Positions 55,852 to 58,104 of a DNA stretch of 63,332 nt are shown here, piece by piece. Made by a program: the position numbers and the translations under genes. The notes beneath the pieces were generated by a model that did not search any database, was not told the origin of the DNA, and worked only from the letters and a program-made list of their open reading frames with translations. Source of the stretch: an uncultured archaeon (GTDB lineage: Archaea > Nanobdellota > Nanobdellia > Woesearchaeales > CAIVOO01); NCBI GenBank assembly GCA_903904885.1, contig CAIVED010000004.1:1-63332 (forward strand). The letters are read 5' to 3'. Within the stretch, counting starts at the first letter, position 1; the number at the start of each line of letters is the position of its first letter.

Positions 55852-56262
55852 ATGAAAAAAGAGTGTGTTTTTTGCACCATCAAAAAAGAGGAGAAGATTC
55901 TCGAAACTAAACATTGCTACGTCTACCCGGACAAATACCCTCTTTCAAGAGGGCATATTCTGATAGTGCCGAAGAAACATTATGAAAGCATAATGGCAAT
56001 GCCTGATGAGGTTCTTTTTGATGTAATCAAAACAGTCAAATTAATGGAAAAACGATTGATCCAAAGGCTGAAAGTAGAGGGAATGGATTTCCGGGAAAAC
56101 TACAGGCCTTTTGTCCCTGAAAGCAATCTCCGAAAAGCCCACATCCATTTTCACATAATTCCCCGGACGTTTAAGGACATGATTTACAGGGCAAAAGGGG
56201 AAATCAAAAGGAAGGAGATTTCTGAGAAAGATAAGGCTTGGCTTATTAAAAAACTGAAATAA
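55852..56262 (+). CDS. HIT-family nucleotide hydrolase
   Basis: 136 residues. The N-terminal C-x2-C start (CVFCTI) and the histidine triad KAHIHFHIIPR (near residues 101-111) mark a HIT protein, active on nucleotide-phosphoryl substrates such as diadenosine polyphosphates or adenylylated proteins. The mid-part LSRGHILIVPKKHYESI is the usual HIT strand-helix. It starts 18 bp after the tRNA. Confidence 0.9.
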   Translation: MKKECVFCTIKKEEKILETKHCYVYPDKYPLSRGHILIVPKKHYESIMAMPDEVLFDVIKTVKLMEKRLIQRLKVEGMDFRENYRPFVPESNLRKAHIHFHIIPRTFKDMIYRAKGEIKRKEISEKDKAWLIKKLK

Positions 56263-56270
56263 AAAACAGA

Positions 56271-56281
56271 AGATATTTAAA
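56271..56281 (+). promoter_or_regulatory. TATA box upstream of the endonuclease/tRNA locus
   Basis: AGATATTTAAA stands about 22-26 bp before GCGGGGG at 56297, exactly where transcription of a tRNA beginning there would need it. It is also about 30 bp before the endonuclease ATG. Confidence 0.5.
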
Positions 56282-56296
56282 TTATTAATTTATTAT

Positions 56297-57175
56297 GCGG
56301 GGGTATGGTAACACTTAGAAAAAGCTCAGACCTCGCTAAATTGGTTGGCCTTATTACCGGAGATGGCCACCTCCAACTTAAGGGATGGCGAGGATTGGTT
56401 TCTTTTTACTCAGAAGATATTGGAGATATAAAGAGCATTAATGAATTGTTTAAGAAATTATTTGATAAAGGGGGCAGAGTATACCAAGATTTTAGTAAGG
56501 GTATCGCAAAGAAATCAATAATGCGGTATAAAATATTTCTGATATCCAAAGAAATTACTAAAAATCTCAATCAAATAGGGATACCTAAAGGGAATAAAAC
56601 AAATACTCTCTTTTTAGTGCCCGATTGGATAGTAAACGGTAGCAAGCCCATCAAAAAAGCGTATCTCAGCGCAATATATGACTGTGAAGGATGCATTTAT
56701 GAAACCAAGTCCGAAAGTTCAAGCAGATGGAGAATTGCCCTGGAAATGTATAAAAGAGATGACCTTGCGGGTAATGGCGTTAAGTTTTTTGAACAAATAA
56801 AGGGGATGTTAAAGGATTTTGGAGTAGAAACGTCTAATGTCCGGTTTAAGAAGGGCAATCTAAGAAAGGATGGCTCGATAAGCAAGGGATTGATTTTTGA
56901 CATAGAAAAACCCAGTTTTAGAAACTTTTATAAACGTGTGAACTTCGAAAATACTGTCAAACGGAGGAAGCTGGAAACAGCTCTTAATACTTGACCATTT
57001 GCGGGGGTTATTTCATAAGATTAGCGTCTTTTGAATTCCCTAGAGCCAAGTGGTTAAGGTCGGCATATGGAAGTATGCTGATAACAAGCGTTCGGCTGCA
57101 AAGATCAGGCTGATGAGCAATTAGCGATGATAAGTAGAGCCCGATCATGCGGGGGTTCGAATCCCCCTCCCCGCT
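56297..57175 (+). tRNA. Probable tRNA-Cys(GCA) with multiple introns, one perhaps encoding an endonuclease
   Basis: The 3' part is certain: T arm GGGGG-TTCGAAT-CCCCC (57151-57167), acceptor TCCCCGC, then T at 57175 (T73 fits Cys). Working backwards: variable CATGC; 3' anticodon stem CCGAT (57141-57145); an intron of about 38 nt; loop CTGCAA with anticodon GCA (57098-57100) and stem TTCGG (one T-T mismatch); G26; an intron of about 29 nt (57060-57088); D arm GCC-AAGTGGTTAA-GG/C (57045-57059). The 5' acceptor GCGGGGGT occurs twice: at 57001, which makes an 8/9 intron of about 35 nt, and at 56297 behind a good TATA box, which makes a 739-nt intron holding the LAGLIDADG gene. Which is used cannot be settled by eye. 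Confidence 0.6.
56305..56994 (+). CDS. LAGLIDADG homing endonuclease
   Basis: 229 residues with two LAGLIDADG helices: LAKLVGLITGDGHL (about 10-23, acid Asp20) and KKAYLSAIYDCEGCI (about 117-131, acid Glu near 129). It is therefore a two-domain, single-chain enzyme, and the active acids look intact. It is bracketed by direct repeats of GCGGGGGT (56297-56304 and 57001-57008), which are also the 5' acceptor strand of the tRNA behind it, so it may be an intron ORF of that tRNA or an insertion that copied the acceptor. Its ATG overlaps the first repeat's end. Confidence 0.88.
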   Translation: MVTLRKSSDLAKLVGLITGDGHLQLKGWRGLVSFYSEDIGDIKSINELFKKLFDKGGRVYQDFSKGIAKKSIMRYKIFLISKEITKNLNQIGIPKGNKTNTLFLVPDWIVNGSKPIKKAYLSAIYDCEGCIYETKSESSSRWRIALEMYKRDDLAGNGVKFFEQIKGMLKDFGVETSNVRFKKGNLRKDGSISKGLIFDIEKPSFRNFYKRVNFENTVKRRKLETALNT

Positions 57176-57326: not shown

Positions 57327-57698
57327 ATGATTGACTGCAAGAAAAAGAAATATGGAATTTCAGAGGAACTTTGCGAGAAGATTAAGGAAAGAGATAAGCG
57401 TTGCATATATTGTGATAAAGAATTCAAAGAATACCCTTATTCTGACAAAGCAACAATAGAACATATGGATACTCCGAGTGTTAAAAATCCAGAAGAATGG
57501 AGGGTGGGTATCTGTTGCCATTCGTGTAATGCAAGCAGAAAAGGAAAAAATGAAGATTGGGATACTTGGTTTGAATCAGATTTCTGCAAAAAAAGAAAAA
57601 TTAACAAAGACACAGTAGCCCAATTTGTGAAAGATTATAGGAAAAGAATTCAAGGTGAGGTAAAAAATGACCCAGTGCGAAATGTGCGGCAGGAATGA
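57327..57698 (+). CDS. HNH endonuclease-like protein (123 aa)
   Basis: The layout is C-x2-C (CIYC, 26-29), then a T-I-E-H-M-D core with His46, then a C-x2-C (CHSC, 64-67) followed by NASRKG. This is the zinc-supported HNH fold. It may be a free-standing mobile endonuclease. The end overlaps the mbf1 start by 32 bp, and a TATA-like ATATTTATAAACC lies at about 57243. The 57176-57326 gap has two CTGGTTAAG repeats resembling the tRNA D arm and a possible hairpin (AGTATG...CATACT, 57185-57211). Confidence 0.78.
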   Translation: MIDCKKKKYGISEELCEKIKERDKRCIYCDKEFKEYPYSDKATIEHMDTPSVKNPEEWRVGICCHSCNASRKGKNEDWDTWFESDFCKKRKINKDTVAQFVKDYRKRIQGEVKNDPVRNVRQE

Positions 57699-58104
57699 AG
57701 CAGAGTTATCCGCTCTAATTGAGGATGTGGAGCTGAAGGTCTGCCAGCACTGCTCTAAATTCGGCCAGATTCTTAAAAAACCCACCTTTGCAGAAGCGCC
57801 GAAGAAAAGGGTTGTAATAGACGGGCCGGAGATAATTGTTGTTGAGAACTACGCCAAACTAATCAAGGAAAAGAGAGAGGATTTGGGGCTTATGCAGGAG
57901 GATTTTGCCAAGATGCTCAATGAAAAGCTCTCAACATTCCAGAGCATAGAAAGCGGTCATTTAAAACCAGACATCAAGTTTGCGGAAAAAATGAAGAAAA
58001 TGTTCGGGCTGATTCTGACAAAGGAAATAAAGAAAGCAGACATCAAGATTGAGAAGTCAAAAACAGCCGGGTTTACGCTGGGCGATTTTATTAAAAAGAA
58101 TTAA
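57667..58104 (+). CDS. mbf1: Archaeal multiprotein bridging factor 1 homologue
   Basis: 145 residues. The N-terminal zinc ribbon has Cys4, Cys7, Cys26 and Cys29. A linker leads to a lambda-repressor-type HTH (YAKLIKEKREDLGLMQEDFAKMLNEKLSTFQSIESGHLKPD, about 62-105) and a helical tail. Archaeal MBF1 binds ribosomes or transcription complexes. A GGTGAGGT ribosome site lies just before the ATG. It converges with the minus-strand thioredoxin-like gene, with a four-base overlap. Confidence 0.88.
   Translation: MTQCEMCGRNEAELSALIEDVELKVCQHCSKFGQILKKPTFAEAPKKRVVIDGPEIIVVENYAKLIKEKREDLGLMQEDFAKMLNEKLSTFQSIESGHLKPDIKFAEKMKKMFGLILTKEIKKADIKIEKSKTAGFTLGDFIKKN

Follow-up and report, generated by a model that had tools for sequence, protein, structure and literature searches.

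By what route do tRNA genes of archaea acquire introns at unusual sites, and why do some of these genes fragment? The question is an open one, and the best-documented case of intron gain that we found concerns one locus and was attributed to a recombinase (PMC3293823). The locus considered here raises it in a concrete form. In a window of 63,332 nucleotides (contig CAIVED010000004.1 of an uncultured Woesearchaeales archaeon, with a genome of 1.31 Mb in 44 contigs, 98.7% complete), a gene for a LAGLIDADG protein, a presumptive homing endonuclease gene (HEG), lies between two copies of the 5′ end of an intron-rich tRNA-Cys. The initial annotation of this DNA allowed either that the ORF sits within a tRNA intron at position 8/9 or, as a fall-back, that an insertion duplicated the 5′ end of the tRNA.

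Results

The tRNA-Cys gene and its introns

Neither ARAGORN nor Rfam finds a tRNA-Cys in the raw window sequence. Once three introns are taken out, ARAGORN calls a 73-nt tRNA-Cys(gca), which bears out the anticodon GCA, the T73 and the three introns first annotated (Table 1). The introns also fall where they had been placed, at 8/9, 24/25 and 37/38, though the middle one can be written as 23/24 or 24/25. The gene is neither split nor permuted, every exon lying in order from 57001 to 57175. When the junctions are examined for bulge-helix-bulge (BHB) motifs, intron 2 forms a clean one with 3-nt bulges, and intron 1 has a central helix of GGGG/CCCT type with an imperfect inner helix. The genome has one splicing endonuclease gene. 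The initial annotation had proposed looking for another tRNA-Cys in the genome; none of the 35 tRNAs called by ARAGORN at the genome's Rfam tRNA hits is specific for Cys and the D-arm pattern of tRNA-Cys occurs once, so that the gene in the window is the only tRNA-Cys detected.

Table 1. Features of the tRNA-Cys locus and its neighbours, in window coordinates
Feature	Position	Strand	Basis or remark
HIT-domain gene, left neighbour	55852..56262	+	Synteny with HEG-less G002
TATA-like box TATTTAAAT	56274..56282 (centre ~56278)	+	5′ of copy 1; from sequence, putative function
Copy 1 of tRNA-Cys nt 1-8, GCGGGGGT	56297..56304	+	Exact repeat; site empty in G001 and G002
LAGLIDADG homing endonuclease gene (HEG), 229 aa	56305..56994	+	Pfam, structure, clade of tRNA-Cys-associated HEGs
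Copy 2, exon 1 of tRNA-Cys, nt 1-8, GCGGGGGT	57001..57008	+	Exact repeat
Intron 1, 8/9, 35 nt	57009..57043	+	Not in either sister genus
Exon 2, D arm	57044..57058	+	Assembled tRNA
Intron 2, 23/24 (equally 24/25), 29 nt	57059..57087	+	Clean BHB; missing from G001
Exon 3, anticodon arm 5′ side, anticodon GCA	57088..57101	+	Assembled tRNA
Intron 3, 37/38, 38 nt	57102..57139	+	Also in G001 and G002
Exon 4, rest of anticodon arm, T arm, acceptor, T73 at 57175	57140..57175	+	Assembled tRNA
MBF-like gene, right neighbour	57667..58104	+	Synteny with HEG-less G001

Several features of these tRNAs were noted in passing. The 37/38 intron of tRNA-Cys (intron 3 of the window; also L090, L144, L145 and L195) often holds an internal motif resembling a kink-turn, UGAGC...GCGAUGA, which a loose pattern finds in 14 of 26 intron-bearing tRNA-Cys genes. 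T-loop introns (GGTTCGAA...CGAAAGTCC) are frequent in tRNAs of the order (L038, L307, L315, L322, L324 and others), and such genes are consequently missed by standard finders. At L148, L161, L055, L050 and L058 the acceptor 5′ strand of tRNA-Cys is repeated about 12-16 nt upstream (GCGAGGG, a spacer, then GCGAGGGT), both behind HEGs and in HEG-less tRNA-Cys with an 8/9 intron; these repeats are possibly scars of earlier insertions.

Repeat, ORF and promoter

The presence of GCGGGGGT on both sides of the endonuclease gene is confirmed. The repeat is 9 nt long when the T preceding GCGGGGGT is counted in, and copy 1 also matches at nt 9, where A56305 is the A of the HEG start codon; the 229-codon ORF begins with this ATG, immediately after copy 1. 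The spacing from copy 1 to copy 2 is 696 bases, and the LAGLIDADG gene is the sole sizeable ORF of the insert.

The better TATA box does lie before copy 1, as had been observed. It is about 19 nt from copy 1 and about 27 nt from the HEG ATG, and in the sister genera a TATA box is found about 29 nt 5′ of tRNA-Cys (counted by hand), so the spacing suits the HEG ORF better than a tRNA start at copy 1. Reading the sequence by eye, we found no TATA-like site at the usual distance 5′ of copy 2. Since the box is spaced for a start near the HEG ATG and none precedes copy 2, the tRNA is probably made from the HEG transcript by way of RNase P: the promoter 5′ of copy 1 would drive a single transcript of HEG and tRNA, from which RNase P would free the tRNA at 57001. 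Simple loss of the HEG region would then be costly.

The protein

The ORF product matches Pfam LAGLIDADG_3 (E 6e-6). Its AlphaFold model, built from an 11-row alignment (mean pLDDT 90.4, pTM 0.89), has two alpha-beta-beta-alpha-beta-beta-alpha halves, and the top PDB fold matches of the model are the bI3 maturase, I-WcaI and I-SceI; WhiA, a regulator with the LAGLIDADG fold, is also among the matches. The acidic residues of both LAGLIDADG motifs, D20 and E128, are invariant across the clade of the window protein. The protein has several marks of a LAGLIDADG homing endonuclease: two acidic motifs, a fold of two halves, and a gene within its own target site whose orthologous sites are empty. As with free-standing (intronless) HEGs, the gene lies outside introns and inteins and beside a conserved gene, yet it comes with a rebuilt tRNA half and an intron. 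A single-protein scan of genome contigs with the window protein gave no match; an alignment-based search returned 12 named relatives, and the homologues with named records belong to Woesearchaeota and Nanoarchaeota MAGs.

Empty sites in sister genera

Two genomes from other genera of the same family carry the corresponding locus. In G001 (genus g2, locus L090) the gene order is tRNA-Arg, tRNA-Cys, MBF-like gene, and in G002 (genus g3, locus L092) it is topoisomerase VI A, HIT, tRNA-Cys. The two loci represent the two flanks of the window locus, and both are without the HEG and without the 8/9 intron. In a DNA alignment, from which the window and L090 rows were used, the window carries exactly 35 nt more than G001 at 8/9, as an insertion, and a second insertion, of 29 nt, in the D arm. 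As the sister loci have neither HEG nor 8/9 intron, the insert can be defined as the HEG, a copy of nt 1-8 and the 35-nt intron; these were added, in that order, after nt 8 or 9 of the old gene. The fall-back reading of the initial annotation, an insertion that duplicated the 5′ end of the tRNA, is right.

Directly 3′ of the tRNA-Cys in the window (57327-57698) is a short ORF with similarity to recombination endonuclease VII (PF02945, at an E of 5e-4 that does not reach the cut-off), perhaps a second mobile nuclease, of HNH/EndoVII type, at this tRNA. HEG-less G001 has the MBF-like gene straight after tRNA-Cys.

The same architecture across the order

Related HEGs were found in 201 of the 352 genomes of the order that were searched, and 70 of their loci were inspected. 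By a strict adjacency test, defined as an intact T arm near the HEG end, 45 of the 70 HEGs abut a tRNA, compared to 4 of 66 upstream control windows and 0 of 70 positions inside ORFs; of the remaining 25, many were seen by eye to neighbour a tRNA with an intron in its T arm or to have a tRNA in antisense. HEGs co-oriented with the tRNA stand upstream of tRNA-Gln, Cys, Gly, Val and Pro, and those that converge on it meet tRNA-Phe, His and others at the 3′ end (isotypes by eye). Several HEG stop codons lie within the tRNA, either as the TAG of the D arm or as a TGA antisense to the T loop, and 3′ cases, too, can have a partial copy of the tRNA beyond the HEG (L288, L295, L304, L326).

Exact repeats of 20-22 nt are present at tRNA-Gln in the window genome (L036), in G002 (L037) and in G100 (L039), and at tRNA-Gly (L315); at tRNA-Val (L324) the repeat copy has diverged. 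For instance, the tRNA-Gln(TTG) 5′ exon, CAGCCCCGTGGTGTAGTGGTCAA, stands on either side of a related HEG in the window genome (L036, 26% identity), and the HEG of L037 is flanked likewise by the tRNA-Gln(CTG) 5′ exon, AGCCCCGTAGTCTAGCGGTCAA. Both genomes have another tRNA-Gln, with neither HEG nor D-loop intron. In these five D-loop cases (three Gln, one Gly, one Val) copy 1 runs past exon 1 by exactly the 3-4 nt that come next in the uninterrupted tRNA, as far as nt 24, after which the HEG follows; copy 2 is followed by a 20-42-nt intron, and its match ends at the exon end because the intron starts there. D-stem pairing was used to place the start of exon 2 by hand; for G002 the intronless paralogue L224 was the guide as well. 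That five loci should each match over 3 nt or more of overhang by chance is very unlikely, at about (1/64)^5; copy 1 of the window has one overhang nucleotide only (A9). As the overhang of copy 1 matches the uninterrupted tRNA, the HEGs appear to have entered intronless genes at fixed places, and the contrast between the two copies assigns the intron to the HEG-adjacent one. A flank-repeat test pooled over all loci did not rise above control at low scores, control pairs reaching 21 because they share tRNA sequence, and the long, position-checked cases were used. Other orders of the class also have HEGs of this sort next to tRNAs. Judged by sequence, the architecture of the window is recurrent and order-wide in the Woesearchaeota.

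Some conserved sequences around these genes are of separate interest. After the related HEGs of L365, L376 and L377 there is a conserved non-tRNA sequence (..GATGA..TGAACACCC..AATGAA..CTGATGAGCGC..), which may be a gene for a small RNA of box C/D-like type. The motif CACTGGACA occurs at most 150 nt upstream of 31 of 69 tRNA-HEGs, as against 1 of 69 inside ORFs, typically about 42-52 nt from the start and just 5′ of the TATA box. It is found at L328-L337 and upstream of HEGs in many of L042-L065 and L288-L326, and is absent upstream of the window HEG. The window genome holds only 10 exact copies (reversed control, 2). Other copies precede genes for Hef-like helicase, SPL-like radical-SAM, BRO-like and HTH-like proteins (named by eye), and the motif may be an operator through which many HEGs have become part of a DNA-damage regulon.

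HEG phylogeny and association with introns

Mapped onto a tree built from 75 HEGs, the kind of tRNA requires 22 changes, compared to a mean of 50.4 for shuffled labels, and the protein tree tracks tRNA identity across host families. The window HEG belongs to a clade of 14 with 100% support from at least five host families, 11 of whose members are tRNA-Cys-associated and three unassigned; a second, separate group of tRNA-Cys HEGs has three members.

The presence of the intron was scored in a tRNA-Cys sample drawn regardless of HEGs, about 31 of the 110 loci, mostly with interrupted T arms, being left out of the table as no T arm passed the script's test. The 8/9 intron is found in 6 of 8 genes with a nearby HEG and in 12 of 77 without one (p = 9e-4, from a test that ignores phylogeny). 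One or two of those 12 were mis-scored by the script (L092 has no intron), making the contrast conservative. The D-loop (21/22) intron is present in 10 of 14 HEG-bearing tRNA-Gln genes, a group scored by eye, and in 24 of 114 HEG-less ones (p = 2.5e-4, likewise ignoring phylogeny). Running ARAGORN over all split positions was too permissive to place introns in relatives, and its output was discarded. HEG-bearing tRNAs without an intron at the expected site exist (L048, L080) and many HEG-less tRNAs carry one there, which makes immunity through the intron the weakest step of the model proposed below.

Discussion

A proposed homing model for the locus

We consider it likely that a tRNA-Cys-specific LAGLIDADG HEG was inserted by homing into the 5′ portion of the sole tRNA-Cys gene detected in this genome. 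The HEG most likely lies outside the 8/9 intron; copy 2 and the short introns, so far as the sequence tells, form a complete tRNA directly behind it, and copy 1 would be the left-over 5′ half of the invaded gene, though a length of only 8-9 nt for this copy in the window counts against the model. The enzyme would cut an uninterrupted tRNA-Cys near nt 8-10, and its Gln, Gly and Val relatives would cut near nt 21-24. Repair of the break from an occupied allele would copy in the HEG, a fresh 5′ exon and a short BHB intron as one block; arrival of HEG and intron in a single event and their arrival in sequence would both be compatible with what is seen. The intron would split the recognition site and so protect the occupied allele, and the splicing endonuclease would remove it, so that the tRNA survives. 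Copy 1 would decay unless it still served as promoter or leader.

Other explanations

It is improbable that the HEG is carried inside a 739-nt intron at 8/9, with copy 1 spliced to exon 2 at 57044 and the second GCGGGGGT a relic within the intron. The promoter does stand before copy 1, the spliced product would be identical, and HEGs in archaeal BHB introns are known (PMC6125680). However, copy 2 with its 35-nt intron is complete and fits a BHB by itself, HEG-less relatives carry a similar short 8/9 intron alone, and the sequence after copy 1 cannot pair into an inner helix with the 3′ splice region (hand comparison). What lies behind the ORF is a complete tRNA with short introns of its own, and the ORF does not appear to be bounded by usable splice sites. 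The TATA spacing suggests a transcript start near the ATG, past copy 1; in relatives with longer copies, the overhang means that copy 1 contains exon-2 nucleotides; and the convergent 3′ cases are impossible as ORFs of sense-strand introns. The placing of the ORF within the 8/9 intron is therefore not upheld.

A tRNA-targeting integrative element, in which site-specific recombination made the direct repeat and the LAGLIDADG gene is a passenger, seems to us very unlikely; it is the model put forward for the tRNA-Thr of Caldiarchaeum. A direct repeat of part of a tRNA, a reconstituted tRNA and intron gain look alike in such a case (PMC3293823), and the border repeat of a tyrosine-integrase element of SSV or pNOB8 type is present, though common to the homing model; but the ORF is a LAGLIDADG gene, an integrase gene is absent, the insert holds nothing else between the copies, and HEG clades track tRNA kind. 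We would give as little credence to a domesticated maturase or regulator, immobile now, that aids splicing or expression of the adjacent intron-rich tRNA. The bI3 maturase is the best PDB fold match of the model and WhiA matches too, but the closest family relatives have no HEG at the same tRNA, both motif acids are invariant, and a patchy distribution, with degraded ORFs bearing stops in some genomes, fits a homing life cycle. BHB introns are not known to require a maturase. A chance repeat or an assembly artefact beside an unrelated free-standing HEG is the least credible account: the window repeat is short and the sequence is an assembled contig, but exact 20-22-nt repeats stand at the same place in other genomes, and tRNA adjacency across the order and the structure of the tree speak against it as well.

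Relation to known systems

The open-access literature searched yielded no account of LAGLIDADG genes that sit at the ends of tRNAs together with a rebuilt exon and an intron. The closest precedent is a single locus, the insertion in tRNA-Thr(GGU) of Caldiarchaeum subterraneum (Sugahara et al. 2012, PMC3293823). It shares with the window a 5′ tRNA fragment, a same-strand ORF directly upstream, and a complete tRNA with an intron gained near the break, and an intron-lacking allele exists in the population (PMC3293823). It differs in that its insert measures 1.87 kb and includes an additional repeated region; SVMProt assigned the 813-bp ORF to the recombinases, and a pNOB8-type plasmid was taken to be the cause, a homing endonuclease not being considered (PMC3293823).

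A similar example is T4 SegB, a free-standing HEG outside introns and next to tRNA genes for which homing has been proposed; it is, however, a GIY-YIG enzyme, lies between phage tRNA genes and has an intergenic target, with no rebuilt tRNA half and no intron (PMC2988022). In collaborative or trans homing, a free-standing HEG targets the insertion site of a nearby HEG-less intron, and since the specificity of the nuclease is then the intron insertion site, HEG and intron can move together, as they might here (PMC2988022). Those are group I introns in protein genes, whereas the window has BHB introns in an archaeal tRNA gene, with the exon between HEG and intron duplicated. Archaeal rRNA genes, including those of Woesearchaeota and Pacearchaeota, contain HEG-encoding BHB or group I introns; the LAGLIDADG HEGs and the location of introns at conserved RNA genes are alike, but there the HEG is inside the intron (PMC6125680). 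Fungal mitochondria have partial cob and atp6 duplications with degenerate HEGs, and LAGLIDADG ORFs separate a partial gene copy from intact cob; these are protein genes, unlike ours, and no BHB intron was gained (PMC6279837).

Implications for tRNA introns in Woesearchaeota

We also lean slightly towards a broader interpretation, namely that the Woesearchaeota host a radiation of tRNA-isotype-specific homing elements, each made up of a HEG, a rebuilt tRNA end and a BHB intron, in which the nuclease spreads the intron to tRNA genes that are uninterrupted and loss of the HEG leaves 'orphan' non-canonical introns. The architecture offers a specific agent, one LAGLIDADG nuclease per tRNA kind. 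Tolerance by the host would be explained by the rebuilt tRNA end and the splicing of the intron, and the intron may persist for the reason that it would block re-cutting. An order-wide set of filled, empty and degraded sites is available for testing. Insertions at the tRNA genes of this order could help to explain the origin of archaeal tRNA introns and, if the broader interpretation is true, homing beside the intron, and not within it, would be a main engine of tRNA intron gain in these archaea.
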